A DNA stretch of 64,000 bases, from positions 62,001 through 126,000 of the forward strand of contig NZ_BKAG01000004.1 in assembly GCF_007992435.1 (NCBI RefSeq). Reading direction: 5' to 3'. The notes under the pieces were generated by a model. That model ran no database searches, had not been told where the DNA came from, and saw only the letters and a list, made by a program, of their open reading frames with translations. Below are positions 19,203 through 44,370 of this stretch, in pieces (the first letter of the stretch is position 1; each line of letters opens with the position of its first letter). The stretch comes from Prosthecobacter gellanilyticus. Lineage in GTDB: Bacteria; Verrucomicrobiota; Verrucomicrobiia; Verrucomicrobiales; Verrucomicrobiaceae. Position numbers and translations under genes: made by a program.

Positions 19203-22200
19203 TCACTGCGGCCATTCACTGCGCTCTGCGGGACGTTTCCTGAGCCAGCGTGCCAGTCGTGCGAGCGGGCTCATCTCTGACTCAGGCAGGGCTTTGACAA
19301 TGTCCGCCTGCTTTTCGCGTGGGATGGACGTGGCTGTGCCATCCGCATGCAGCCGCTTGCTGCAGCGCGCTTCGGCGAAGTCGATGAACCACGCGGGCGC
19401 TTCTGGGATGCGCGCGGGCAGTGGAAGCTGCATCCACGTGCCGTTTTCACGACGGTACAGATAACCGCTGCCACCCGCCAGAGGTTGAACAGCGGTCGCG
19501 CGTTCGTTGCGCTTGAGAGTTGGGGTGAGAGGGTCTCCGGTCAGGGTATCCCACACGCGATGCGCGCCCTCCGTGGTGATGGTGATGAGCGACCTGCCAT
19601 CCGGCGTGAGGGCGAGATGCTGCACGGGCGCGTCATGACGGAGATTTTCACACACCTGTCGTCCGCTGACCGTCTCCGTGACATGCACCTGGTGGTCGGG
19701 GTCACAGGTGAAGGTGCGCTGCGCACTCTTCAGCATGAGCTCGGATTCTCCAGCCTGCCCGGCCGAGGCTGTCAGAGCGCCGGCGGCCTCCGGCACGGGA
19801 TCCTTCCATACGCGCGGCTGGAGCATGCTCGCGTGCAGCTCCCAGACCTCCAGCGCGGCTTCTCGTGCTTGCACATCGATGGTTAAGCTGCCGTCGTGGC
19901 TCGCGGCGCAGAGATCCACCAGTTGCTGGCTTTGATGAGCGCTCACCGTCTGGCCGTCCTGCTGCCAGAGGCGCAGATCACCGCGCTCGCTGATGGCCAG
20001 GGTCATGGGCTGTGGCCCGCCGGTCATGCGGCAGAGGCGGATGCCGCCGTTCAGTTTCTCCCCGGCATCCAGCGGGCGCATCTCACGGGCGTTCCAGGTC
20101 ATCACGACACCATTTGAATCTCCCGTGAGCAGCACCTCGCCATCCGCATTGAAACCCGTGTCGGTGATCGGAGCCGTGGAGACCAGCGGCGCGCCGAGGG
20201 GCAGGAGATGATTCGATGTCTCGTAGACTTGAATGAGCCCGTTCCACAGGCCCACGGCCACCAGCGTGCCCTGCGGATTCACGGAGAGGGTAGAAATAAA
20301 GCCATCTGAGACACCACGCGGGGCGTGGATGTCCCCAGTGCCACGCGGATCCAGCAGTGACAGCGCACGTCCATGGGCCACGACCACATTCTTAGCCTTC
20401 TCATCGATGACCATCTTCTGCACTGGCTCGATGAGAGGTCGCACAGCAGCGGCAGGCTTGCCTTGGGCGATGTCCCAGAGTCTCGTCTCCGCTCCGCCTG
20501 CTTTCGGGTTGGCTGCGGCCATGACAAATTCTCCATGACCGCTGATGGCCAGCGCGGCCACACTCTCCGTGAGCTTGTCCTCAAATTGCAGAAAGGCTGC
20601 CGCGCCGATGTCATAACGCGCTAGTGACCCATCCGTGAATCCCAGGATGAGGAAGCCATCATCTGAGCTGGTCTGCACGGCGCTGATTTTCAGTCCTGCC
20701 GGCAGTCCGAGCTCGGTGGCAGCATTCTCGGTGCCCTGGCTGACATCGAGGCTCCAGCGCATGATGAGGTCAGGCTTTTCCTTGTCACCACTGCACACGG
20801 CCACGGCCACCCGGTGCTGTGCATTCACGGCCACATGCATGATGTGCTCCCAGCCGGGCTTCACGCTCAGAGTCATGGATGAGCGATGCCCGAGGTGCGA
20901 CTGCATGAGCAGCGCCGAGAGGTAGGTGGCGGCGGTGCCATTCTGTGGATCTTCACGCAAGGCGAAGGCCAGATGTGCGATGGCATCGCTGTTGCGACCG
21001 CGCTCGCTGAGCAGGCGCGCATCATGGAAATATTTCCGGCTGCTGTTATGGAGGCGCGCAGAGCGCTGCTGCACCTCCAGCGCATGCTCTTGCTGTTGCT
21101 GGCGGTATTGCTGTAGAAAGTGCCAGCCCTTGGGGGCCGCCGCGGCCAGCGCCACGGTGCCCGCTGCCACCGCCCAGCGATAGCGGCGCATCCACTTGCC
21201 CAGGAGATAAAGCATCCCGCGTGCGCGGGCACTCACTGGCCAGTCATTCAGATGACGCTGCACGTCCGAGGCCAGTGCCTCGGCGCTGGCGTAACGTTGG
21301 TTGGGATCGATCGCGAGCGCCTTCAGCACGATGGCATCCAGGTCACCACGCAGGTTCCGGTCCCGGGCCGAAGGCGGAACGAGAGGCTGCTCTATCGCCG
21401 CGCGCAGCGCCACCTCCATGGGTTTCCCGATGAGTGATTTCTGATCCACCGCGGCGGTGCCGGTGAGCATCTCGTAAAGCAGGGCGCCGAGAGCATACAC
21501 ATCTCCGCGCACATCTGCGGCAGCGCCGCCATGCTCCGCCTGCTCAGGGCTGATGTAGCCGGGCGTGCCAATAATCTGGTCATGCAGGGTGAAGATGACA
21601 TGTTTCCCCAGCGCGCGGGCTTCCAGAGCCCGGGCGAGACCGAAGTCGACCACCTTCGGTTTCGGGATGCCGTTTTCGACTGTGACGAGAATGTTCGCCG
21701 GCTTCAGGTCACGATGAATGACGCCTTTTTGATGCGCATGATGCACCGCCTCACAGACGGCGATGAAAAGCCGCAGCCTGTCCCGCAACACCGGCGAGGT
21801 CTGCCGAACATAGCTGGTGATGGAGGTGCCGTCCGCACGCTCCATGGCAAAGAAGAGACGGCCATCCACCGTCTCGCCCGCATCCAGCACGCGGGCGATG
21901 CCAGGATGGTCCATCATGGCCAGGGCTTGGCGCTCCATTTCGAAGCGGGCGATGATGGGCGTGGTATTCACCTGGCCGCGCAGCACTTTGATCACCACCT
22001 CACGCTGCACCGGCAGGCTCTGGCGGGCTTTGAAGACCACTCCGGAGCCACCGCCGCCGAGTTTCGAGCCGAGCTTGTACCGTCCCATGAGGGAGGTTTC
22101 CAGGTTCTCCTCCCTCAGGTCGTGGGACGTGTCCAGGACATCAAAGGTGGGCGTGTCCATCTCTTCCGCGTCCAAACCACCGCGCAGCATGCAGTAGGGG

Positions 22201-22307
22201 CAGAAACCGGCTGACCCTGAGGGCAGCGGGCGGGAGCAGTCTGGGCAGAGCGAGGGGGGCAAAGCACCTAAAATGGAGCGCAAACCTGGCGCGGTGGCAA
22301 GTGGCAT
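19203..22307 (-). CDS. Zinc-ribbon / Ser-Thr protein kinase / beta-propeller sensor
   Basis: A 1034-residue eukaryotic-type kinase fused to a propeller. The N-terminus has a zinc ribbon (Cys21, Cys24, Cys36, Cys39). The kinase domain spans about 77-345: Gly loop KLGGGGSGVVFKA, Lys107 in VVIKVL, HRDLKPANIL with Asp200, DFGLA at 221-225 and GTPGYISPEQ. All catalytic residues are present, so it should be active. A single membrane helix (about residues 375-395) separates it from an outer region of about 600 residues with a short helical (TPR-like) part and WD40-type repeats. It probably senses an external cue and signals to the cytoplasm. A GAGGTG lies close before the ATG. It is divergent from the S41 protease, 41 bases away. 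Confidence 0.9.
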   Translation of the reverse strand: MPLATAPGLRSILGALPPSLCPDCSRPLPSGSAGFCPYCMLRGGLDAEEMDTPTFDVLDTSHDLREENLETSLMGRYKLGSKLGGGGSGVVFKARQSLPVQREVVIKVLRGQVNTTPIIARFEMERQALAMMDHPGIARVLDAGETVDGRLFFAMERADGTSITSYVRQTSPVLRDRLRLFIAVCEAVHHAHQKGVIHRDLKPANILVTVENGIPKPKVVDFGLARALEARALGKHVIFTLHDQIIGTPGYISPEQAEHGGAAADVRGDVYALGALLYEMLTGTAAVDQKSLIGKPMEVALRAAIEQPLVPPSARDRNLRGDLDAIVLKALAIDPNQRYASAEALASDVQRHLNDWPVSARARGMLYLLGKWMRRYRWAVAAGTVALAAAAPKGWHFLQQYRQQQQEHALEVQQRSARLHNSSRKYFHDARLLSERGRNSDAIAHLAFALREDPQNGTAATYLSALLMQSHLGHRSSMTLSVKPGWEHIMHVAVNAQHRVAVAVCSGDKEKPDLIMRWSLDVSQGTENAATELGLPAGLKISAVQTSSDDGFLILGFTDGSLARYDIGAAAFLQFEDKLTESVAALAISGHGEFVMAAANPKAGGAETRLWDIAQGKPAAAVRPLIEPVQKMVIDEKAKNVVVAHGRALSLLDPRGTGDIHAPRGVSDGFISTLSVNPQGTLVAVGLWNGLIQVYETSNHLLPLGAPLVSTAPITDTGFNADGEVLLTGDSNGVVMTWNAREMRPLDAGEKLNGGIRLCRMTGGPQPMTLAISERGDLRLWQQDGQTVSAHQSQQLVDLCAASHDGSLTIDVQAREAALEVWELHASMLQPRVWKDPVPEAAGALTASAGQAGESELMLKSAQRTFTCDPDHQVHVTETVSGRQVCENLRHDAPVQHLALTPDGRSLITITTEGAHRVWDTLTGDPLTPTLKRNERATAVQPLAGGSGYLYRRENGTWMQLPLPARIPEAPAWFIDFAEARCSKRLHADGTATSIPREKQADIVKALPESEMSPLARLARWLRKRPAERSEWPQ

Positions 22308-31508: not shown

Positions 31509-34500
31509 TTACGGATCAAACCGAACCGCGCCGGAGATCGTTTCATTGGTTAGGTCAGTCGGCAGGGCTGGCACGAGGGCATGTCCTGCACCCAGCCTGC
31601 CGCCAGTTCCGTGTGGCTGGCGCAGCACGCCAGTGAAGGGCACCGTCCGTTTCTTACCGGCATCCAGCAGTTCAAAGCTGCCGGCGAAAGCTCCCGTGGC
31701 AGGAGTGATGGTAGCTGTCCATTTCGTGCTGTTCGTGGCCTGTGTCACCACCAGTTTGTTGGCTGCGTTGAGCGTCACTTCCACCGGCAGGTTGCCGACC
31801 GCAGCGCTGCCAAAGCCGCCGTGAGAAACGTCCAAGGTTGGGGTTCCAGAGAGTCCCAGCAACGAGGCGAGAGTCTCTGTCTTGGTGGGCGGAATCCATG
31901 GATCCACCGTCATTCGTGTGAGCACGGGGCCGAAGTCATCGCGGTAAGATTTGTCCGTGGCGCGGCCTGTCTTGGCCCAGGCGAAATCACAACCTGCGGA
32001 AGCCGGGATGTAGCGCTGCGAGAGCGGCCCCGGATGATTTTCAAAATCCAGCCAGCCTGCGAGGTAACTGCCTGCCCGCGCATAGGGCTGGGCAAAGAGC
32101 TGGTATCCAAGCTCCACATACCCGTTCGGTTGAAGAGATGCCGTGAGCGTGGTGCCGTCCGCCAGACGACCAGCGACTTTCAGGACCAGTTTGCTGTCAA
32201 TGGTGACCGTGGCGTGGCCGGAGCCTGCGGGAACGTCTGAGCCTGCAGGCAATGCCGTAGCCAGGATCATCGTGTAGGCACCGATGTCGTAGAGCGTCCT
32301 TCCGGCAGGTGGAGTGTAGATCTTTTTGCCATCATGCGTCTCCGCTGTCAGCACATCGTTGATGCGCATTTGAGACTGGAAATCCATGCCGAAGGGCAGG
32401 TCAAAGGTGACTGCATAAGTCTTGCCGTTTTTGGTGACGGGCTTGATGGCACCGGTCGCCTTCTCCTCTCCGCTGTTCACCATCAGCGTGCCGTTGAAGG
32501 ACATGGGGGCGGCCTCTCCGGGCACCGTGAGCTTGCCGCTCAGCGCAGTGCTGCTGGCTGTCACGGTGAACTCCACTTTAGCCGCAGGGAGAGTGTCCGT
32601 GCCCGTCAGCAGGGCCTCATAGGCACCTGCAAAGGTTTCCACCAGCATCTGACCATTGGCATACACCGGCACATAGTTGAGCATCACCGCCCCTGAAGCT
32701 GTGATGGGATACAAACCGCCTGCGCTGGCGGGAGTGGCCGTGGTTTTCAGGATCGGACGCTTCGCACCGGTCGCAGCGAACACCGAGCTCTCGGTGTCAT
32801 TGCCTGCAAAGCCAGAATAGTTGACGGTCAGCGCAGGATTCGCCTGGCCGATGAAGCGGCGATGACTGTCTGTGGCCACTAGCAGCGGCGCCTTGGCGAT
32901 TACCAGACTGCCGGCGAGCGTTTTGCCATCAACCACGACTTTGACCGGGTAGCTGCCTGCATTCACCGGCGGCGAGTTTGTGGCTGCCTTGTTGATCGTA
33001 TAGGTGATGACTGGCGCACTGCTCGCACCGATCACGCTCACGCTCCGTGGCAAGCCATTGTAGGTCTGGTTGAGATCCACGAGCATAGGCGCAGTAGGAA
33101 CTGGCTTGATGACGATCGCCTTCGTGAGGGTTGGAGCTTCCCTGTAGCCGCTGTTCCCGGTCTGGCTTGCACTGATCTTGACAGAGCCAGTCCCCGTCAG
33201 CGTCAGCACGTTGCCGCTTTGAAGCGTGGCCGGGCCGGAGACGATGGAGAACGTCACAGGCAGTCCTGAGCTCGCGCTCGCGGAGAGGGACAGCGGTCCC
33301 TGGTTAACAAAAAGCGTGGCAGGCGGGTTGAAGGTCACCGTCTGGGCTGAGCGTGTCCCCATGTAGCCTGAACCCCAGACTTCAAAGCTGTAGCTCTGTT
33401 CATCGGGATCATTGGTGGTGAAACTCACCGTGGCGCGTTGCACGCCAACGTCAGGAAGATACCAAATTTCAAAGGTGGTGCCGGATCCGGGCATCACGGT
33501 GGAGGACGGGTCCTTGTGAAGCCTGAAATGCGCCGCCTGAGAACCGGTGATGGTCAGATTGCTGATTTCAAGGTTGCTCGACCCCACGTTGCTGATGACA
33601 AAGGTGTGCTCCACCGGCCCGGCTCCCCAAACCGCTCTGCCAAAGTCAGTGCCATTCGCCAGTGAAGGAGTGGCATCACCGTTGGAAATGAAAACGGAGT
33701 TTCCTCTCACTTCGACGTCCGCCTCCACACCGTTGCCTTGGAGGTTGAAATTGAAAGCGCCTTCGTCTGCGTCGTTGGAAGTAAATCTCAGTGTCGCATT
33801 TCGCAGCCCAATTCCGCTGGGGCTGAAAGTCACCCTCAGCAGCGTGATGTCCCCGCCAGCCAGCGATGTGGCAGGCAGCTGAGACAGCGTGAAATCACCC
33901 GCATGGACTCCGGAGACCACGAAGTCGTTGAGGGTGAGCGAAACTGTGCCCATGTTTTGCAGCACAAACGTGCGGGTCAGGCTGCCAAACACCGTCGAGA
34001 CATCGCCAAACTGAGTATGGTCCGCCAGTGACGGCGTGGTGTCACCATCGGTGATTTGGACATCATTGCCAGAGAGGGCCAGTTCGAGTGACAAAGGGGT
34101 GTTGTATGCATAGGCGGCGCCTGCGTCGGCGGCCAGTTCATCGGGCATGCCATTGATGCTGGTCGTGCTGCTGTCTTCGGACTGAGCGCCAATCAGGACG
34201 TGCTCCCCGGACACAGCAACCGAGCCTACGGGCTGTGTCTCCGCACCGCCGAAGTAGTCGCCAGCTCCCGTATTATGAGATTTAACATAGGCTTGCTGGG
34301 CCCAGGTGGTTCCCGTGCGTTTGAAGATGTAGGCCGCTCCAGAGTTTGCCGCGCCTTCGTAGTTTTCAAAGCCATTCACCCCGATGTTGATGTTGTCTTC
34401 ACCTCCTGCCCCGACCACGGCGGTGTCTCCGGAAACAGCCACTCTGCCAAACTTGTCATCATATCCGGTGTTGCTGGCTTTGAGATAGGCCTGCTGGCTC

Positions 34501-37031
34501 CAAAGGCCAGCCTGCCGGGTGAAAATGTAGGCCGCTCCGGCACCCGGGGTATTGTCGTTTGGCGTGCTGTTTACGCCTTTGGTGCTGCTTCCCTCATTGG
34601 GAGCTCCCACGATCAAGGTGCTTCCAGACATGGCCACCGAGGAACCGAATCCATCTACGGACTCCCGGTTGCTCGCTTTGATATAGGCCTCCTGGGACCA
34701 CGTTCCTGAGGTTCCTCGCTTGAAAACATAGACGGCACCAGAATCACCCTCTGAAGCATACATCGCCACACCATTCACTCCGGTCGCATCGCTGTCGTCA
34801 TAAGGCACTCCCATGACCGCAGTGTCACCGGAAATGGCCACGCTGCTGCCCGCGAAGTCATTCGTGCGCGGGAAACTGGCTTTCAGGTAGGCTTCCTGAA
34901 TCCATGTTCCACCGCTACGCGTGAAAATATAGGCCGCGCCTGAGGAGGCCGCTCCCTCATTGGGAGCACTGTTTACACCGGAAGTGCTGCTGTCCTCCCC
35001 ATAGGCTCCCACGATCACAGAGTCTCCGGAGATGGCCACATCACTGCCGAAGCGATCAGTAGTGCCGCTATTGCTGGCCTTGAGGTACGCCTGCTGAGTC
35101 CATATCCCGTCTTGGCGTGCGAAGATATAGGCCGCTCCGGCACCTGGGGCATTGTCGTTAGGCAAACTGTTCACACCTGTGCTGCTGCTTCGCTCATCAG
35201 GGGCACCGATGATGATCGTATTTCCAGAGATGGCCACGGAGGCACCGAACCAATCATGAACCCCAGGGTTGCTGGCCTTCAGGTAAGCCTGTTGTGTCCA
35301 GACGCCATCGGCGCGCACAAACACATAGGCAGCCCCTGCAGCGGTAGCTCCTTCATCCGGCGTGCTGTTCACACCTGCGCTGCTGCTGTCTTCAAGTTTT
35401 GCTCCCACCACCACGGTATCTCCGGACACTGATACGGAGCCGCCGAACCAGTCTCCAGCCTCTGTGTTACTGCCCTTGAAGAAGGCCTTTTGGGCGATTG
35501 CGAGCGCCGCCTCGTTTACATCTGTGACGGTAATCGTGAACTTCTTCTCAAACGCGAGGGGAGGATTGGCATTGTCCTCCACACGCATGCGGATGCTGTA
35601 GCTGTTCTGGGTTTCAAAGTCTGTTGCCACTCTTGCCAGCAGACGGTTGCCGGAAATGGCAAAGGCGGAATTACCCTCGTCGCCAGCCCCCGCGACCAGG
35701 CTGAAGACATGGCTTTGTCCGGCGTCGGGATCCGTAGCCGCGAATTGGCCCACAAGGGTGCCTGGGAAGTTGGCCTCTGCGATGCTGCTGTTGCCTAGCG
35801 TGATGTTCGTGGGAGCCAGATTGGTGCCCGTGCCCTGAATGCTGAAGGTGAAAGGGTTCTCATCATAGTCATTGTTGCCAATGGTCACGATCGCGCTGCG
35901 TGTGCCAACGATCGTAGGTTTGAACTGGATTCCAAGCCCGTAGATGACTGTATCGAGGGAGGAAATCGGGCTGCTAGGCATTTGGGTGATGCTGAAATCA
36001 CCCGCGTGAGCCCCTGTTATAGTGATGTCGCTTAGCGTGAGCGGTTGACTGCCATAGTTGCGAATTAAATACCCGCGGACAGAAGAACCTGTGATGACCA
36101 CGTTCCCAAAGTCTGTGTTGTCGAACGTATATGGAGTGCTGTCTCCGTTCACGATATCCCGCAAATCACCGGTGACGCCAATCTCGGCACCCGAGGCGAT
36201 GGCTTGGATATTGAACATGTAGCCGGGGGTGTTGACGCCGTTCGTCGTGATCGTGACGGTGGCTGAAGCAACCATGGATCTGGTGGACGTGAACGTCAGG
36301 TCGAACGTGGTGCTTCCTCCAGGCGGCACCAAGCTGGCTGGAGCCCGGGATAGGGAGAAGACGCTGGCGTTTCCCGAAGTGAAAAGCACGCTGGCGACCG
36401 TGAGATCCGACTCACCGATGTTCTGGAGAGTGAAGGTGCGGGTGATGCTGCCTACCCCCACAGCAGTGCTGCCAAAATTTGTATGGTCTTCAGGCCTTGG
36501 AGTATAATCCCAGTGGATGATGTTCTGTCCGTTACCTGAAAGCAAAGGCTCAGGGCCGGTGCTCCGTGCTCTGATGGCAAAGCTGAAGGCAGCCTCATCG
36601 ACGTCATTGCTGCTGAAGCTTACCGTGGCAGTGCGCAAACCTAGCAGGCCAGGCTGGCAGGAGATCTGAAATATGGTGCTCTCCCCGGGCAGCACGGAAG
36701 GCGCTGGCTGCTGGGACACGGTGAATTCACTCGCTGGCACGCCTCCGGTCACTTTCACCGACCCTGGCTGTAGTGTGGCCGTGCCATCGTTATGAATGGT
36801 GAAGGTTCGGATCACGCTTGCTGCCTCGGCCGGGACGTCCCCAAAGTCTGTGTGATCGTCCACCGTCGGGACCATGTCACCGTTCACAATGCTGATGCCA
36901 TTTCCGGTCACAGAGATTTCGGGCTCCAGCGCCACTGCTTCCGCAATGCCTGACATACAGAGAAGACCCACTAGAAGCCGGCGGAGCGCAACTGAGGCGA
37001 GGGAATAAACACAATAACGGAAGTGAGGCAT
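31509..37031 (-). CDS. Giant secreted choice-of-anchor-D / cadherin-like / FG-GAP / MBG protein
   Basis: A 1840-residue exported protein; I chose the ATG at 37031 (MPHFRYCVYSLASVALRR), giving a signal that ends about GIAEAVA. Order of parts: three choice-of-anchor-D Ig-like repeats (each about 115 residues, with DHTDFGDV-type motif); a cadherin-like repeat (about 400-505, FAATDPDAG, ITVTDVNEA); seven FG-GAP blades (about 510-1005, each with VSGDTVVVGA and GAAYVF), enough for one closed integrin-like propeller; two more anchor-D repeats; an Ig-like segment; MBG/YDG-type repeats (about 1325-1470); and a conserved about 365-residue C-terminal beta region ending ETISGAVRFDP. No enzymatic motif is seen. 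Probably a surface or adhesion protein. Paralogue of 39494-44293. Confidence 0.87.
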   Translation of the reverse strand: MPHFRYCVYSLASVALRRLLVGLLCMSGIAEAVALEPEISVTGNGISIVNGDMVPTVDDHTDFGDVPAEAASVIRTFTIHNDGTATLQPGSVKVTGGVPASEFTVSQQPAPSVLPGESTIFQISCQPGLLGLRTATVSFSSNDVDEAAFSFAIRARSTGPEPLLSGNGQNIIHWDYTPRPEDHTNFGSTAVGVGSITRTFTLQNIGESDLTVASVLFTSGNASVFSLSRAPASLVPPGGSTTFDLTFTSTRSMVASATVTITTNGVNTPGYMFNIQAIASGAEIGVTGDLRDIVNGDSTPYTFDNTDFGNVVITGSSVRGYLIRNYGSQPLTLSDITITGAHAGDFSITQMPSSPISSLDTVIYGLGIQFKPTIVGTRSAIVTIGNNDYDENPFTFSIQGTGTNLAPTNITLGNSSIAEANFPGTLVGQFAATDPDAGQSHVFSLVAGAGDEGNSAFAISGNRLLARVATDFETQNSYSIRMRVEDNANPPLAFEKKFTITVTDVNEAALAIAQKAFFKGSNTEAGDWFGGSVSVSGDTVVVGAKLEDSSSAGVNSTPDEGATAAGAAYVFVRADGVWTQQAYLKASNPGVHDWFGASVAISGNTIIIGAPDERSSSTGVNSLPNDNAPGAGAAYIFARQDGIWTQQAYLKASNSGTTDRFGSDVAISGDSVIVGAYGEDSSTSGVNSAPNEGAASSGAAYIFTRSGGTWIQEAYLKASFPRTNDFAGSSVAISGDTAVMGVPYDDSDATGVNGVAMYASEGDSGAVYVFKRGTSGTWSQEAYIKASNRESVDGFGSSVAMSGSTLIVGAPNEGSSTKGVNSTPNDNTPGAGAAYIFTRQAGLWSQQAYLKASNTGYDDKFGRVAVSGDTAVVGAGGEDNINIGVNGFENYEGAANSGAAYIFKRTGTTWAQQAYVKSHNTGAGDYFGGAETQPVGSVAVSGEHVLIGAQSEDSSTTSINGMPDELAADAGAAYAYNTPLSLELALSGNDVQITDGDTTPSLADHTQFGDVSTVFGSLTRTFVLQNMGTVSLTLNDFVVSGVHAGDFTLSQLPATSLAGGDITLLRVTFSPSGIGLRNATLRFTSNDADEGAFNFNLQGNGVEADVEVRGNSVFISNGDATPSLANGTDFGRAVWGAGPVEHTFVISNVGSSNLEISNLTITGSQAAHFRLHKDPSSTVMPGSGTTFEIWYLPDVGVQRATVSFTTNDPDEQSYSFEVWGSGYMGTRSAQTVTFNPPATLFVNQGPLSLSASASSGLPVTFSIVSGPATLQSGNVLTLTGTGSVKISASQTGNSGYREAPTLTKAIVIKPVPTAPMLVDLNQTYNGLPRSVSVIGASSAPVITYTINKAATNSPPVNAGSYPVKVVVDGKTLAGSLVIAKAPLLVATDSHRRFIGQANPALTVNYSGFAGNDTESSVFAATGAKRPILKTTATPASAGGLYPITASGAVMLNYVPVYANGQMLVETFAGAYEALLTGTDTLPAAKVEFTVTASSTALSGKLTVPGEAAPMSFNGTLMVNSGEEKATGAIKPVTKNGKTYAVTFDLPFGMDFQSQMRINDVLTAETHDGKKIYTPPAGRTLYDIGAYTMILATALPAGSDVPAGSGHATVTIDSKLVLKVAGRLADGTTLTASLQPNGYVELGYQLFAQPYARAGSYLAGWLDFENHPGPLSQRYIPASAGCDFAWAKTGRATDKSYRDDFGPVLTRMTVDPWIPPTKTETLASLLGLSGTPTLDVSHGGFGSAAVGNLPVEVTLNAANKLVVTQATNSTKWTATITPATGAFAGSFELLDAGKKRTVPFTGVLRQPHGTGGRLGAGHALVPALPTDLTNETISGAVRFDP

Positions 37032-37228
37032 GAAAGTCTTTTGATGTCTGTCGATGAGGGCTCCACTGGCAAAAGCCAAGGAACCTGTTTCCTAGGTTCG
37101 GACAGCATAATGATGCAACACGGGCGTGCCCTTGGCGATCGGATTGCAATACATAGTCCATACCAGATCTGGCAACAAGGTCAAACCTCGACCCAAGGCG
37201 CTGCCGACTCGCACGTTGAAGCTCCTGA

Positions 37229-38251
37229 ATGCCTTCCACCCTTCGAACCCTGCTCACCACTGCCTTATGCGCCATGCTGGGAGCGGTGATGGGAAGCTGG
37301 AAGCAGCCTGCGCAAAATCCAGAGTCTGCTAAATCATCTGAGGCCTCTCCTGCGCCCGCTGCCGTCACCTCAGTCAAGGAGTTGCCATCCAAACCACCGC
37401 CTTTTGTCAGTGTCACGGCCTCCATGGAGTGGGTGAAGCGGCAGATGGAGAAGGGGGATTTTGAGGCGGCGGAGCTGCTTTTTCGTCAGGAGGCGGGGCT
37501 GACGCTGGAGCAGCGGCTGGACATGGCGGAGCAACTGCTGCGGAACTACCGGCGCATGGAGCCGCGAGTGCTGGCGCGCCTTCTTCTCAGTCTGCCGGAG
37601 GGCGATGCCAGATCGAGGATGCTTAACCAATTATTCTTCCAATGGGCCTCCGATGATGCGGATGATGCGATGCGCTGTCTGGAGGGGATGCCTGCGGAGC
37701 AGTTGAAGAAATTCCCCCTGCACAACACGGGCCTGGGTCTCTCGCGTCTGCCGGCGGAACGGGTGCTGGCCTTTGCAGCCAAGCTGGATGACCGGGGGCG
37801 TGCTTTCCTTGCCGAGGGACTGGCCGGCTCTGTGGATGAGCTTGGCTCGTGGTCAAACACCTCGGCCATGCTGGCCGGACTCAATCTAAAGCCTGACGGA
37901 GAGGCTGTCTCGACCGAGTGGGTGCTCGCCGTGAACATGACCCGCCTTGCACCCGCGGAGGCCGAAGCGTACATCGCGGCGGAATCAGATCCCGCCAGGC
38001 GCGCTGAATTGCTCGGCGGCTATGCCTGGATCGCTGGCGTCGACGACCCAGTTCGAGGGATTCTGCTCGATGCGCAGATCGAATCTGGAAAGATGCGCGA
38101 AGGACATTTCCGGCGGCATGTGAACGCGTGGCTTTCCACGGATCGCGCTGCTGCGCTGGCCTGGCTGCGAGGTGATGAAGCAGCGCAGATCCTGAGTCCG
38201 GAGCAGCGTGCCGCGTTTTTCAGGAGCAACGGACTGGAGGTGGTGCGATGA
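37229..38251 (+). CDS. Secreted helical-repeat protein A
   Basis: A 340-residue protein with an N-terminal signal or anchor (LLTTALCAMLGAVMGSW) followed by a Pro/Ser/Ala-rich linker and then an all-helical region. Units of about 30-40 residues repeat loosely around Ala-Trp and Leu-Pro pairs (FFQWASDDADDAMRCLEGMP, VNAWLSTDRAAALAWLRGD), the pattern of an alpha-solenoid. Proteins of this kind are frequent in verrucomicrobia but uncharacterised. Its stop overlaps the ATG of protein B (ATGA at 38248), so the pair is translationally coupled. It is divergent from the giant gene ending at 37031, with about 197 bases between. Confidence 0.7.
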   Translation: MPSTLRTLLTTALCAMLGAVMGSWKQPAQNPESAKSSEASPAPAAVTSVKELPSKPPPFVSVTASMEWVKRQMEKGDFEAAELLFRQEAGLTLEQRLDMAEQLLRNYRRMEPRVLARLLLSLPEGDARSRMLNQLFFQWASDDADDAMRCLEGMPAEQLKKFPLHNTGLGLSRLPAERVLAFAAKLDDRGRAFLAEGLAGSVDELGSWSNTSAMLAGLNLKPDGEAVSTEWVLAVNMTRLAPAEAEAYIAAESDPARRAELLGGYAWIAGVDDPVRGILLDAQIESGKMREGHFRRHVNAWLSTDRAAALAWLRGDEAAQILSPEQRAAFFRSNGLEVVR

Positions 38252-39381
38252 AGCTTGTCTTCCAAGTGCTTCTGCATGGCCTGGCGGTCTGCGCGGGCTA
38301 CTGGCTGGTCTCTGGCGAAGCTGCCCAGGCACCGGCCAGGGTGAAAGACACTGCGACCCATGCGAAGACTCTGGCAGTGACAGGCACGCAGGCTGCCAAA
38401 GCCTCTCCGGGCAAGCCGTCTGGAATAGAGTTGAACCCGCTGAGTCCGGAGACATGGCCGAATGAGATCGCCCTGATCCAGAAAATGTCCCAGTCAGAGC
38501 TTCCCGCCGCACTGCGGCGCTACTTGGGCTGTCGTTTCCCGGATGTCCGCTTGCGTCTGATGAGGTATCTGTTTGAGCGCTGGGCACTGCTGGATCGTGC
38601 GGGCGCCCTGGCGGCTCTGGAAGGCATTCCCTCACCGCAGATGAAGGACCGTGCGCTGCGCGCCATTCTGACCGAATGGGTGAAGGTGGATGAGGCGGCC
38701 GCCTGGCAGCATGTGGTCTCGATGAGCAAAGACACGGTGCTACAGGAGGCGGGCATCCAGTCGCTGCTCAGTCTATGCGCCGACAAAAGCCCAACCAACT
38801 ATGTGGCATGGACGAAGGGGCTTGAGGATCCATTCCTGCGGGGAAAGGCGCTCGAATCCATCGCCGAGGCGTGGGCACGGAAGGATCCGAAGAGGGCGCT
38901 GGAGGCGGCCTTCATGGAGGAGAACCCTTATCTGCGAGAACAGCTTTTCGAGCTCGTCTCCCGCCACGGCAAGGCCGGGATTGACCCCGCCCAGGCGCTG
39001 GACCGGATTCTGCAACTGCCAGATCAGGCCGAGCGTGTGCGGGTGATGGAAGGCTGGGTGACCGTCTTCGCCAACACGCAGCCGGCGAACGCCTTGCACT
39101 GGCTCCAGCAGCATGCGAACCGCGCCGATCTCCAGGCTGCCAGCGGGATCATTGGCAAGGCGATGAGCGGGCAGACCAAGCTCGTCGCAGACATTCGCAA
39201 TGCGGCCCTCAGCCTGCCGGAAGGACCGCTGCGGGATTCGTTTGCCGCGAGTGCTGCGGGTGCCTGGGCTTCGCGTGGGCACCACACTCCCGAGGCCGAG
39301 CAGATCCTGGCGCTCTCGGGACCTTGCATCGAGCGTGAGCATGCTGTTGTCGCCATTGAGACACATCGGAAGCCTCGGTGA
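38248..39381 (+). CDS. Secreted helical-repeat protein B
   Basis: A 377-residue distant relative of the preceding protein, with a short hydrophobic N-terminus (VLLHGLAVCAGYWLVSG), a linker rich in Ala, Lys and Pro, and then helical repeats. Units carry the same signature (RWALLDRAGALAALEGIPSP, EAWARKDPKRALEAAFMEE, VFANTQPANALHWLQQHA), consistent with an alpha-solenoid for protein binding. It overlaps protein A by 4 bases. It ends 112 bases before the end of the second giant gene, with a REPIN-like element in between. No catalytic motif is visible. Confidence 0.7.
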   Translation: MKLVFQVLLHGLAVCAGYWLVSGEAAQAPARVKDTATHAKTLAVTGTQAAKASPGKPSGIELNPLSPETWPNEIALIQKMSQSELPAALRRYLGCRFPDVRLRLMRYLFERWALLDRAGALAALEGIPSPQMKDRALRAILTEWVKVDEAAAWQHVVSMSKDTVLQEAGIQSLLSLCADKSPTNYVAWTKGLEDPFLRGKALESIAEAWARKDPKRALEAAFMEENPYLREQLFELVSRHGKAGIDPAQALDRILQLPDQAERVRVMEGWVTVFANTQPANALHWLQQHANRADLQAASGIIGKAMSGQTKLVADIRNAALSLPEGPLRDSFAASAAGAWASRGHHTPEAEQILALSGPCIEREHAVVAIETHRKPR

Positions 39382-39392
39382 AGGTCGTGCCA

Positions 39393-39465
39393 CAAGTGCG
39401 TTGTTCACGCTTCAGCGTGGGATTGGAAGTTCATTGAACACGCTAAAGCGCGAACAACGTACGTT
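39393..39465. repeat. REPIN-like inverted repeat of the GTTGTTCACGC family
   Basis: Two inverted units: 39393-39419 (containing TTGTTCACGCTTCAGCGTG) and 39439-39465 (CACGCTAAAGCGCGAACAA onward). Each has a small CACGC/GCGTG-type hairpin. A single unit with 26 of 27 bases identical to the left arm occurs at 52215-52241. The element lies between two convergent genes and may end transcription from both. Confidence 0.78.
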
Positions 39466-39493
39466 AGGCTCGCAGCTTGTCCCTCCTGAATCC

Positions 39494-42400
39494 TCAAGGG
39501 GTAAACTGGATGGCTCCGGAAATGGTTTCGTTGGAAGATGCGGTCGGGAGTGCGGGCACCAAAGTGTGTCCGGCTCCGATAGCGCCGCCGGTGCCGTGCG
39601 CCTGGCGCAGCACGCCGGAAATGGGGACCGTGCGCTTTTTGCCGGCATCCACGAGTTCAAAGCTGCCGCTGAAAACACCCGTGGCGGCGGTGATAGTGGC
39701 CGTCCATTTGGTTAGGTTGGCGGGCACCGTGACGGGTGAAGTGATGGTGACCTTGTTCGCGGCATTGAGCTTTGCCTCCAGGGGAAGATTGAGCAGGGAT
39801 GCGCTGGCAAAGCCGCTGTGAGCCACGCCGAAGGTTCCGTCACCGGGCAGTCCGAGCAGGGAGGCGAGCGTCGCTGTCTTGCCCGGCACGATCCACGGAT
39901 CCACCGTCACCCGCGTGAGCACCGGGCCGAAGTCATCGCGATAGGATTTATCCGCGGCACGGCCATCCTTGGCCCAGCACAGATCACAACCTGCGGACGC
40001 AGGAACATAAACACGGTTGGTTAGCTGGGGATGCTCCTCGAAGTCCAGCCAGCCTGCGAGGTAGCTGCCAGCACGCGCATAGGGCTGGGCGAAGAGCCGG
40101 TAACCCACATGCTCGTCCGGCAGAAGCGAGGCCGTGAGCGTGGTGCCGTCTGCCAGCTTCCCGGCAATCTTCAGCACCGCCTTGCTGTCAATCTTGGCCG
40201 TCGCGTGACCAGAGCCTGCGGGCACATCCGGCCCTGCAGGCAATGCTGGGGCCAGGATCATGGTATGCTCGCCCGCGAACAAAGTTTGCTGAGACGTTGC
40301 CGGCACCCATAGCCTCCGGCCTTCCGCCGTCTGCGCGGTGAGTGTGGAGTTGATGCGCAGTTCTGATTCGAAATCAGCTTTCAATGGCAGTTCAAAGGTC
40401 ACCGCATAGGTGTTGCTGCCCTTGACGACAGGCTTGATGGAACCCGTGGCCTTTTCGTTTTCGGCATCCACCGTCAGCGTGCCGGTGAAGCTCAAGGGAG
40501 CGGGCTCTCCGGGCACAGTCAGCTTGCCGCTCAGCGTGGCGCTGCTGGCTGCGACAGCGAATTCCACCTTGGCCCCAGGCAGATGGTTGGTGCTCTCCAG
40601 CAGGGCTTCATACGGGCCTGCAAAGGTTTCCACGAAGAGGCTGCCATTCACATAGACAGGAAGGTAGTTGGTCAGAGCGGCACCAGTGGCCTTGATAGGA
40701 TACACGCCGCCGGGGCTGGCGGTTTTCGCACTCGTGCTGAGCACAGGGCGCTTCGCGCCGGGCAGTGCAAAGGCGGAGTTCTCGGTGTCCTCACCGACAA
40801 AGCCCGCATATCTCACGGTGAGTGGTGGATTATCCTGGCCGATGAAGCGGCGATGACTGTCAGGGATCACCTGCAGCGGCACTTTGGCGATCACCAGGCT
40901 TCCCGTGAGCGTCTTGCCTCCGACGATGGCTTTCACGGCATACGTTCCGGCGTTCACGGGCGCTGTGGTCGTGGCGACTTTGTTCACCGTGTAGTGGAGC
41001 ACGATCTCACCCGTGCCACCCAGCACTCGTGCCGCATGAGGCTCGCCATCATAGACATGCAGCAGATCCACCAGCCGGGCGGTGGAAGGTGCCAGCTCTA
41101 CACGAAGGGTTTTGCTCACGACGGGCGCAGCCTTGTAGTTGTCATCACCCGGCTGGGTGGCGTTGATCTTCACGGTGCCCACGTCATTCAGAGTCAGCAT
41201 ATCACCATCGATGGTGGCTGGTCCGGAGGCGATGCTGAAGATGACTGGCAAACCTGAGCTGGCCTGAGCCGAAAGCACCACAGGTCCTTGGTTGGCATAG
41301 ATGGCGGCCGGCAGGTTGAACGTGATCGTTTGAGCCATCTGGGCAGTCACGATGCCATGCCCCCGGATGGAAAAAGTGAACGGAGCGTGATCTCCCGCAT
41401 CATTGCCGATGCTCACGGTCGCCTCATGCGCCCCCGCGGACTGCGGGTTGAAGGTGATCTGGAAGGTGGTGCTACTTCCGGCGGCGACAGAGGCGGAAGG
41501 CTGCGCCGTGATGCTGAAAGCTCCGGCACTATTGTCTGAAAGCACGATGGAACCCAAGGTCAGCGGTGTGGTGCCGAGACACTGCACGGTGAAGGTCCGG
41601 ACACGGCTTTCCATCCCCACGGCCACCACACCGTGATCCGTGTGGTCATTCAATGAGGGAGTGGTGTCACTGCGGGCGATGTTGACACTGTTTCCTGAGA
41701 CAGCGATTTGATGGTCAGTCCCGCTGCCCTGGATGTTGAAGACAAACGGGCTCTCATTCGCGTCACCGTTTGCCAGGCTTAGAGTGGCACTGCGGAGGCC
41801 GGTGGCACCCGGATCAAACATCACCTGGAAGGTCACACTATCTGCGGCGGGGACGCTCGAAGGAAGGGGGACGGAAACACTGAAATCATCGGCCTGAGGC
41901 CCGCTGAGGATAGGCTCTCCGAGTGTCAGCGGTGCGGTGCCGGTGTTTCGCACGGTGAAGGTGTGGAGGCTCTGCGCCCCAGCTACTGGGACGGCTCCAT
42001 AGTCCGTGTGATCGGCGAGCGCCGGACTTATATCACCATTCGTGATGTAAGTGCCGTTTCCAGAGACAGCGATCTCGGTCGTGTGAGGCACTCGATAGAT
42101 GTAGCCAGCGCCTGAGAGCGCGGCTTCCAGATTGGGAAAGGTGTTCATGCCCGTACCACTGTTGTCTTCTTCCGGAGCCGTCATGATAACCGTGTCCCCT
42201 GACACAGCGACTGCAGCGCCAAACCTGTCATCCTTATGACAGTTGTTGGCTTTCACATAGTTCTGCCAGCCCCAGGTGCCATTCGTCCGTTTAAAGACGC
42301 GGGCCGCGCCGCTGGCTGTTTGTCCGGGCGTGACGTAAGACCCACTGACCACAACCCCTTTGGCCTCGAAAGAGTCTCTTGGGATGCCCATGACTGCGGT

Positions 42401-44293
42401 GTCTCCAGACAGGCCGACGGAGTAGCCGCCCTGCACGTTCACTCCAGTGTAACCCGTCTTCAAAAATGCCTCCTGAGTCCATTGTGCGGAGTTCCGCACA
42501 AAGACATAGGCCGCGCCATTGCTGGGCGCGAGCTCATTCGTCGCGCCGTTGATCACGCCATTGCCCGTGTTCTCGTTAGGAGCGCCGACAATCAGCGAGT
42601 CTCCTGAAGCCGCCACTGCCCAACCAAATGCATCGGAGGCCCCGGCATTGCCAGCCTTGAGATAGGCCTGTTGTCCCCATGTTCCGCCAGAGCGTGTGAA
42701 GACGTAGGCAGCGCCGGCGTTGGCAGCATTCTCGTTGAAGGCAGCATTCACACCTGTGAGGCTGCTGTCCTCCTTGGGCGCGCCGATGACCACAGTGTCC
42801 TCGGACACCGCGACCGACCAGCCAAACTGATCTCCAGCACCTGTGTTGCCAGCTTTGAGATAGGCCTGCTGTATCCATGCACCATTGGCTTCGGCACGGC
42901 TGAAGATGTAAGCCGCTCCGGCGTCGGTCGCGTTGTTGTCGGGAGTGCCATTGACTCCCGTGGCGCTGCCGTCCTCGCCCCAGGCGCCCACCACCACCGT
43001 TTTTCCTGCCGCACCCACTGCGCTGCCAAACCGGTCATCGGCGCCAGGATGACTGGCTTTGAGGTAAGCTGCCTGGCTCCAGGCACCGGCGCTGCGGGTG
43101 AAGACATAGGCTGCTCCCGCATTCTCCGCGCTCTCATCTGGTGTGCCGGAAGCGCTGTCCTCAAAAGGTGCTCCAACAACAAGTGTGTCTCCTGAGATCG
43201 CCACCGCGTAGCCAAACTGGTCGTTAGCACCAGCATTGCCCGCTTTGAGATAGGCCTGCTGGGTCCATGCCCCCTGATCATAGACAAAGACGTAGGCCGC
43301 GCCTGAATCTGTGGCAGCCTCATCGGACGTGCTGTTCACGCCGGTGGAACTGCTGTCCTCAGCAGGGGCACCGACAACGACCGTGTTTCCCGAGACAGCG
43401 ACGGAGTACCCCAATTTGTCTCCTGCTCCGGTGTTGTGAGCTTTGAAATAAGCCTGCTGAGCCACCTGGAAAGCTGTTTCATCAACCACATCCTCGATTG
43501 GAATCTCGAAGCTTCTCTCGAGGAAATTCTCAGGCTGCCCAGTCGGGCTGGCGCGGATACGCACAAAGTATCTGTTCTTCTGCTCATAGTCAGCCACGCC
43601 CTTCAGGCACAATCGGTTGCCTGAGATAACAAAAGCGGCGTTGTCAGTGTCCTGATACCCCGGCACGAGGGTGTAGGTGTAGAGCTCTCGGGAATACAGT
43701 GTGTAAGCTTCGCTCACAACCGTTCCAGGAAAATTGCCCTCGGTGAACCCGTGCTGGCCGGAGAGATAAAGGTTCTGGGGGGCAGGAGGTGGCACGACGC
43801 CGCGAATGCTGAATGAATAGGGATTCTCGTCCGAGTCATCATTACTGAAGTTAACACTGGCATTGTAAGGCCCGTTGCCCGGGGGAGTGATGCGGATCTC
43901 AAAGCTCGTGCTGCCGTTCGGAGGCACTGGAGAAACCGGCTGCTGGCTGATGCTGAAGAGTCCTGCATCAGGGCCCGCGAGGGTGACATTTCCCACCGTC
44001 AGTGGAGCTGTGCCGGTGTTATGTACGGTGAAGACGCGCCAGGACAGATCGTTGACGGTCATGAAAATCTCCGTGTTATCGTAGGGATTGGGAGTCGAGT
44101 CTCCGTTGACGATTTCCAGGCCGTTGTACGAGACCCTGATCTCGGGCGCGTCTGGCGCTTGAGAGTAAGAGGCTCCGGTCTGGAAAGTCATCGCGAGGCA
44201 TGCCCACGCCAAAGCCTTCCGGAAATGAGAAGCGCAGTTGCGGCGGACTGCTGAAAGAACGGCGGGGAGGCGAGAATAAGCCGGAAGATGCAT
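39494..44293 (-). CDS. Giant secreted choice-of-anchor-D / FG-GAP / MBG protein (second paralogue)
   Basis: A 1599-residue exported paralogue of 31509-37031. I chose the ATG at 44293; the signal core is KALAWACLAMTFQTGASYSQA. It has one anchor-D repeat at the start, a cadherin-like segment (LSGQHGFTEGNFPGTVVSEA), seven FG-GAP blades (VSGNTVVVGAPAEDSSSTGV and relatives, ending GAAYVF), two anchor-D repeats (DHTDYGAVPVAG, DHTDHGVVAVG), an Ig-like segment, MBG repeats (LVDLLHVYDGEPHAA, RRFIGQDNPPLTVRYAGF) and the same C-terminal region as its paralogue, ending NETISGAIQFTP. Compared with the paralogue it lacks two N-terminal anchor-D repeats. The C-terminal regions are far more alike than the N-terminal ones. 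Confidence 0.87.
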   Translation of the reverse strand: MHLPAYSRLPAVLSAVRRNCASHFRKALAWACLAMTFQTGASYSQAPDAPEIRVSYNGLEIVNGDSTPNPYDNTEIFMTVNDLSWRVFTVHNTGTAPLTVGNVTLAGPDAGLFSISQQPVSPVPPNGSTSFEIRITPPGNGPYNASVNFSNDDSDENPYSFSIRGVVPPPAPQNLYLSGQHGFTEGNFPGTVVSEAYTLYSRELYTYTLVPGYQDTDNAAFVISGNRLCLKGVADYEQKNRYFVRIRASPTGQPENFLERSFEIPIEDVVDETAFQVAQQAYFKAHNTGAGDKLGYSVAVSGNTVVVGAPAEDSSSTGVNSTSDEAATDSGAAYVFVYDQGAWTQQAYLKAGNAGANDQFGYAVAISGDTLVVGAPFEDSASGTPDESAENAGAAYVFTRSAGAWSQAAYLKASHPGADDRFGSAVGAAGKTVVVGAWGEDGSATGVNGTPDNNATDAGAAYIFSRAEANGAWIQQAYLKAGNTGAGDQFGWSVAVSEDTVVIGAPKEDSSLTGVNAAFNENAANAGAAYVFTRSGGTWGQQAYLKAGNAGASDAFGWAVAASGDSLIVGAPNENTGNGVINGATNELAPSNGAAYVFVRNSAQWTQEAFLKTGYTGVNVQGGYSVGLSGDTAVMGIPRDSFEAKGVVVSGSYVTPGQTASGAARVFKRTNGTWGWQNYVKANNCHKDDRFGAAVAVSGDTVIMTAPEEDNSGTGMNTFPNLEAALSGAGYIYRVPHTTEIAVSGNGTYITNGDISPALADHTDYGAVPVAGAQSLHTFTVRNTGTAPLTLGEPILSGPQADDFSVSVPLPSSVPAADSVTFQVMFDPGATGLRSATLSLANGDANESPFVFNIQGSGTDHQIAVSGNSVNIARSDTTPSLNDHTDHGVVAVGMESRVRTFTVQCLGTTPLTLGSIVLSDNSAGAFSITAQPSASVAAGSSTTFQITFNPQSAGAHEATVSIGNDAGDHAPFTFSIRGHGIVTAQMAQTITFNLPAAIYANQGPVVLSAQASSGLPVIFSIASGPATIDGDMLTLNDVGTVKINATQPGDDNYKAAPVVSKTLRVELAPSTARLVDLLHVYDGEPHAARVLGGTGEIVLHYTVNKVATTTAPVNAGTYAVKAIVGGKTLTGSLVIAKVPLQVIPDSHRRFIGQDNPPLTVRYAGFVGEDTENSAFALPGAKRPVLSTSAKTASPGGVYPIKATGAALTNYLPVYVNGSLFVETFAGPYEALLESTNHLPGAKVEFAVAASSATLSGKLTVPGEPAPLSFTGTLTVDAENEKATGSIKPVVKGSNTYAVTFELPLKADFESELRINSTLTAQTAEGRRLWVPATSQQTLFAGEHTMILAPALPAGPDVPAGSGHATAKIDSKAVLKIAGKLADGTTLTASLLPDEHVGYRLFAQPYARAGSYLAGWLDFEEHPQLTNRVYVPASAGCDLCWAKDGRAADKSYRDDFGPVLTRVTVDPWIVPGKTATLASLLGLPGDGTFGVAHSGFASASLLNLPLEAKLNAANKVTITSPVTVPANLTKWTATITAATGVFSGSFELVDAGKKRTVPISGVLRQAHGTGGAIGAGHTLVPALPTASSNETISGAIQFTP

Positions 44294-44370
44294 ATACAAT
44301 GTATTGCGGAGACTGCCCGGATTCTCTTTCGGGAGCAAGCCTAAAAGAAGTTAGGCCCCCAAAGCTCTGC

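Follow-up and report, generated by a model that had tools for sequence, protein, structure and literature searches.

A pair of giant multidomain proteins in Prosthecobacter gellanilyticus carries a C-terminal domain that is abundant in the host genome and has no name in Pfam or NCBIfam

The locus lies within a 64,000-nucleotide stretch of the Prosthecobacter gellanilyticus genome (the window) and consists of two very long minus-strand genes, giant 1 and giant 2, with two shorter plus-strand genes, hel1 and hel2, between them (Table 1). The four reading frames, their strands and their coordinates, as described in an earlier note on this DNA, were confirmed in the sequence, as was a 4-base overlap (ATGA) of the hel2 start with the hel1 stop. 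For both giants the listed start is a TTG that probably lies too far upstream; judged by eye, ATG codons 16 codons further on in giant 1 and 15 in giant 2 are likelier, each followed by a likely signal peptide. No canonical lipobox was seen by eye in either giant. A promoter scan returned no match, and a terminator scan returned one terminator-like site versus 2.5 in shuffled sequences.

Table 1 Features of the locus, with positions counted from the first nucleotide of the window.
Feature	Position	Strand	Description
Giant 1	31509..37079	-	listed length 1,856 aa; 5 anchor-D repeats, cadherin domain, FG-GAP propeller with 7 blades, two MBG domains and the C-terminal domain
Giant 1 C-terminal domain	31512..32609	-	366 aa; unnamed; family of ~85 copies in the host genome
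Giant 1 MBG_3 + MBG_2 domains	32649..33083	-	
Giant 1 FG-GAP_2 propeller	34080..35507	-	7 blades; borders approximate
Giant 1 N-terminal choice-of-anchor-D repeats	35805..36932	-	borders approximate
hel1	37229..38251	+	340 aa; N-terminus hydrophobic as judged by eye; upstream gene of the conserved pair
hel2	38248..39381	+	377 aa; N-terminal helix, linker, predicted alpha-solenoid
Giant 2	39494..44338	-	paralogue of giant 1; listed length 1,614 aa; 3 anchor-D repeats, 7 FG-GAP motifs as counted by eye, two MBG domains and the C-terminal domain
Giant 2 C-terminal domain	39497..40597	-	68% identical to the giant 1 copy
Giant 2 MBG_3 + MBG_2 domains	40637..41077	-	
Giant 2 FG-GAP_2 propeller	42113..43450	-	borders by eye

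Both giants match FG-GAP_2 (PF14312) at 211.6 and 212.8 bits against a Pfam cut-off of 23, and choice-of-anchor D (NF012200) at 257 and 186 bits against an NCBIfam cut-off of 45. Pfam delimits seven FG-GAP_2 stretches in giant 1 and six in giant 2, and by eye seven motifs can be made out in each, in agreement with the seven blades that the earlier note had assigned to both proteins. The anchor-D and MBG repeats it had described as common to the two are likewise recovered by Pfam and NCBIfam, with five choice_anch_D stretches in giant 1, three in giant 2, and MBG_2 and MBG_3 in both; giant 1 additionally contains a cadherin domain.

When the giants are aligned with each other, identity is highest over the C-terminal 364 aligned residues (68%), followed by the two MBG domains (55% and 63%) and the propeller (52%). 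It is lower in the later anchor-D part (42%), the cadherin-like part (37%) and the N-terminal anchor-D part (39%, with only 184 of 376 residues aligned). The claim that the C-terminal region is much better conserved than the rest is therefore correct in direction, but "much" applies only to the comparison with the anchor-D and cadherin parts and not to that with the propeller and the MBG domains. The two C-terminal regions are also closer to each other than to the best of the matches listed in 75 other genomes, which reaches 48% (E<=1e-45, with no more than 26 candidates scored per genome). This difference supports the proposal that the giants arose by local duplication of one giant gene. Same-strand neighbours that both carry the C-terminal domain are common in the host genome, with gaps of 22, 25 and 368 bases and one run of three, so that local duplication looks usual for these genes; no match to hel1 or hel2 lies in any of these regions. 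Of 34 proteins with the domain, 26 passed a crude hydrophobicity cut, versus 39% of 299 other frames; giant 2, read from its listed start, falls below this cut. The giants are probably exported.

A search of the host genome (7.65 Mb) with the C-terminal domain as a single sequence gave 30 matches. With a 34-row profile (A1) the number rose to 94 at E<=1e-5, of which 85, counted by hand, span at least 200 of the 362 model positions. Profile A1 was made from 34 of 35 listed copies, one shortened copy being left out, and one split copy is absent from it; two smaller sets are A2 (12 sequences, namely the two window copies and 10 from 28 loci) and A3 (19 rows out of a possible 20, without one cut copy). 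With about 85 copies in the host genome, the giants of the window are two among many, and the idea of a C-terminal region private to them was rejected.

The domain is strongly biased towards the ends of proteins. Both window copies are terminal, as are 16 of the 18 copies in loci of other genomes (one in a broken frame). Among 33 host copies outside the window, which are the long copies in regions chosen by likeness to the window copy, 29 end at most 25 residues from the protein C-terminus. The four that do not are of two kinds, as two sit close to the beginning of short proteins (570 and 611 aa) and two lie in long proteins that continue for 276 and 564 residues after the domain. Tandem copies also occur, with three in one 2,055-aa frame and about three in a 2,431-aa frame, where each is split into two matches. 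On contigs C8 and C35 of the host genome, the domain was additionally observed within open frames of 7,772 and 8,871 residues. The fronts of these proteins are varied: a scan of 35 of 36 of them, the largest being left out for size, found He_PIG in 15, I-set in 14, FG-GAP_2 in 7, NHL in 4 and Calx-beta in 4, and more rarely subtilase (3), RCC1 (2) and cyclophilin (2). The genes around them show no common partner at the level of simple frame calls, as no neighbour family recurred in three or more regions among 324 frames from 26 host regions and the window (BLAST, E<=1e-8).

Across 76 genomes, the domain is found at E<=1e-30 in 28, which are the host, 22 of 46 others of the same genus and 5 of 29 at the level of the order. 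The 22 same-genus carriers hold from 11 to at least 26 copies each, and two of the five order-level carriers have a single copy. The other 24 same-genus genomes have no copy at this threshold, and when these were searched again at E<=1e-3, 23 still gave zero; two carriers run alongside gave 36 and 69 matches. A lone remnant of 69 positions was observed in genome G032 (contig C100, L194; L192:1459-1719), within a 90-aa frame of an 8.3-kb contig in an otherwise empty clade, and could be due to contamination.

On an RpoB tree of 38 genus genomes and one distant outgroup, the 20 empty genomes sampled are set apart from all others by a single branch supported at 99/98. In the tree that includes a contaminant-like row, the 20 sampled empty genomes form a clade at 91/98; the rebuilt tree omits this second, contaminant-like RpoB of G043. 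Nine genus genomes are absent from these trees, eight with no match and one with a partial match. The all-or-none pattern is thus a single change within the genus, either one wholesale loss or one gain. As the carriers form one clade with support of only 71/76 in the rebuilt tree, the RpoB tree does not tell loss and gain apart. In a sample of the phylum, 22 of 288 genomes match at E<=1e-10, and these cover one further genus of the same family; two more genera of that family gave no match in this sample at the same threshold. Two observations, the occurrence of the domain in other families and the G032 remnant, incline us towards ancestral presence followed by wholesale loss.

No curated model in Pfam or NCBIfam covers the ~365-residue domain in the 34 copies scanned. 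The only NCBIfam match was to TIGR04294 (pre_pil_HX9DG, H-X9-DG-CTERM), in one copy at E 1.4e-6, and Pfam returned four families, each in one or two copies at E 0.008-0.05. Models of type IX C-terminal sorting domains in NCBIfam matched none of the 34 copies at E<=0.01. An AlphaFold2 model built from 19 rows (pLDDT 86.8, pTM 0.86) is almost all strands, of which there are about 25, many of them short. Foldseek with this model gave no match at E<=0.001 in the PDB or BFVD. A second structural aligner placed no chain at Z 8 or more; its best match was the TbpB C-lobe (Z 7.1, 110 residues, 3.8 A), a score that is ordinary for unrelated folds, and the partial resemblances to TbpB lobes, arabinanases and avidin all lie in that same range. 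Alignments to the TamA barrel were at 12-14 A rmsd, and a profile search of PDB sequences returned two rows at chance level. An internal repeat test aligned the first and last thirds of the domain over 35 columns with 42% probability; the other two comparisons reached 15% and less than 1%, which is no more than a hint of an internal duplication. The fold is therefore confidently predicted by the model and not confidently placed among known structures. The titles and abstract openings of the literature searched contained no description of the domain or of the helical pair.

Neither hel1 nor hel2 reaches any Pfam or NCBIfam cut-off. The two proteins align with each other in part, at 25% over 169 residues (E 1e-5). 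A single-sequence model of hel2 (pLDDT 77, pTM 0.61) shows one helix at the N-terminus and, after a linker of low confidence, about 19 more. Foldseek against the PDB lists importins, catenin and SF3B for this model, all at E above 0.001, with no match at or below that value. Of the 46 other genomes of the genus, 10 have an orthologue of hel2 that is 41-48% identical over nearly its full length. Weak partial matches link hel2 to further helical-repeat proteins of the order; unlike the same-genus orthologues, however, none of those in 29 order-level genomes is better than E 1.6e-12. One of these genomes (G061) has up to 18 such weak matches, and other families of the order carry many too. A 523-aa helical-repeat relative of hel2 also lies elsewhere in the host genome (G000:C23; L064:9748-11319).

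In all ten orthologous loci, hel1 lies directly upstream of hel2; a frame change interrupts hel1 in one locus and a contig end truncates it in another. In four of these loci (L094, L095, L101 and L102), a homologous gene begins at or inside the end of hel2; in L101, the only copy scanned, it encodes a PhoD-like phosphatase. In the window, no such plus-strand gene is found at the corresponding place. Separately, a frame at the end of L101, which by eye has the look of a Ser/Thr protein kinase, aligns at 31% over 215 residues to a 1,034-aa minus-strand frame of the window (19203-22307). We propose that hel1 and hel2 form a separate two-gene operon for alpha-solenoid proteins that may serve as scaffolds in the envelope.

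The earlier note had read the giants and the helical pair as one unit, in which a giant gene was duplicated around a helper pair. In its favor, the genes are physically adjacent in the host genome, both parts look exported or membrane-anchored, and in one genome (G044) a protein with the C-terminal domain lies ~5.5 kb from the helical pair, although this copy shares only 26% identity with the giant 1 domain. The solenoids would then aid export or assembly of the giants. The arrangement does not recur: while the pair is kept in 10 of 10 orthologous loci, a giant of the window kind adjoins it in none of them (L102 spans only 3.5 kb). Conversely, no match to hel1 or hel2 at E<=0.01 was found in 26 other host regions with the domain or in 16 loci of other genomes, a total of 42. 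Counting full-length hel2 and intact copies of the domain in the genus, host included and with some assemblies incomplete, three genomes have both, eight only the pair, 20 only the domain and 16 neither. Thus an intact copy of the domain is lacking in 8 of 11 pair-bearing genomes, and full-length hel2 is lacking in 20 of the 23 genomes that have the domain. There is no positive association between them; Fisher's test gives p = 0.17 in the direction of avoidance, a rough figure given confounding by descent and incomplete assemblies. On the RpoB tree, the helical pair requires six changes and the domain one. Independent occurrence of this kind is what the earlier note had itself taken to speak against the unit. 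With linkage conserved neither in the 10 orthologous loci nor in the 42 others, the four-gene unit was rejected, and a single system of giants and solenoids appears to us extremely improbable. We are confident that the giants and the helical pair are independent of each other, and the four-gene arrangement is most likely an accident of neighborhood in which the pair would sit next to the giants by chance. As the pair looks like an unrelated neighbor, the interest of the locus lies in the C-terminal domain.

Our preferred reading has two parts, a duplicate pair of giants that share a handle domain and a helical pair that is independent of them, and as a whole we consider it somewhat better than an even proposition. 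The giants would belong to a large set of apparently exported, multidomain proteins that combine a variable front with the shared, almost all-beta C-terminal domain. In the two giants, Ig-like anchor-D stalks would carry the FG-GAP propeller, and the MBG domains would join this front to the C-terminal domain. We infer that export would proceed first through Sec, and that the C-terminal domain may then be recognized by a putative component of the outer membrane or surface, which would display the protein on the outside of the cell. The variable front, whether propeller or Ig, would do the binding, with the C-terminal domain acting as a common handle. Terminal bias, varied fronts and an all-or-none pattern are marks of sorting handles in known systems, and we give an attachment or sorting role for the domain an even chance. 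In a stronger version, the domain would mark the substrates of an undescribed verrucomicrobial outer-membrane sorting or attachment system, and one clade would have lost the machinery together with nearly all of the domains at once, a fragment surviving in one species; we regard this as quite unlikely, and the all-or-none pattern is a single data point and not a repeated co-loss. To our knowledge, known sorting tags are all far smaller than a domain of ~365 residues. The non-terminal and tandem copies also argue against a handle, as a pure sorting tag would not need them. On the same side stand the neighborhood comparison, which yielded no recurring partner, and the searches for Slam and SprA_N, which brought out no candidate machinery, although their controls were silent too.

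These same copies, including the two in short proteins, are more easily accommodated by a serious rival, in which the domain is a binding or structural module that has been shuffled among exported proteins and is not a sorting signal. Such a module could bind, for example, a ligand or a polysaccharide of the cell's own coat. The faint likeness to TbpB lobes, arabinanases and avidin, although common for unrelated folds, points the same way, as do single weak matches to CBM_6 and Cthe_2159, each in 1 of 34 copies. However, a shuffled module does not readily explain the strong preference for protein ends (29 of 33) or the sharing of the domain by unrelated fronts, proteases included, and we judge this rival possible but doubtful. 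The number of strands in the model and the mostly C-terminal position could also suggest an outer-membrane beta-barrel, with the giants being autotransporter-like. Many of these strands are short, though, the TamA alignments are poor, Foldseek gave no match at E<=0.001 and copies stand in tandem within one chain, all of which makes a barrel highly unlikely.

Whichever role applies, the C-terminal domain is real, very abundant, without a name in Pfam and NCBIfam, and worth following. Should it serve in sorting or attachment, it would account for much of the surface proteome in Prosthecobacter-like bacteria and offer a way into how Verrucomicrobia put giant proteins outside the cell. Given the clean split between presence and absence inside the genus, a partner gene should be findable by comparison of gene content. 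Should it prove to be no more than a binding module shuffled among proteins, it would still be one of ~365 residues, with ~85 copies in one genome, that Pfam and NCBIfam leave unnamed.

Several known systems resemble the giants in part. Bacterial integrin-type propellers have been described (PMC3192720). The giants hold the same domains, by Pfam and NCBIfam, as multidomain proteins with choice-of-anchor-D, FG-GAP and MBG domains, but no named family covers their C-terminal domain. As for autotransporters, the model of the domain is almost all beta, and no close barrel match is listed for it. The top rank of the TbpB C-lobe among structural neighbors recalls the surface lipoproteins that depend on Slam, and a link to Slam was weighed and is not supported. 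The giants have no canonical lipobox by eye, Slam (PF04575) has no match in the host genome, and of 76 genomes only two gave weak matches, a carrier of the domain and a non-carrier, which does not follow the distribution of the domain; as this search was silent in all 14 controls, it does not establish an absence of Slam. A search for SprA_N was silent in all 76 genomes and also in all 14 controls, so an absence of SprA is not established by it. The C-terminal domains of type IX substrates in Bacteroidota are about 80-100 aa long with Ig-like folds, whereas the domain here is ~365 aa, is not always terminal and lacks an NCBIfam match to such domains in 34 copies. What the two have in common is the overall plan, in which one conserved C-terminal module is carried by diverse exported proteins, dozens to a genome.
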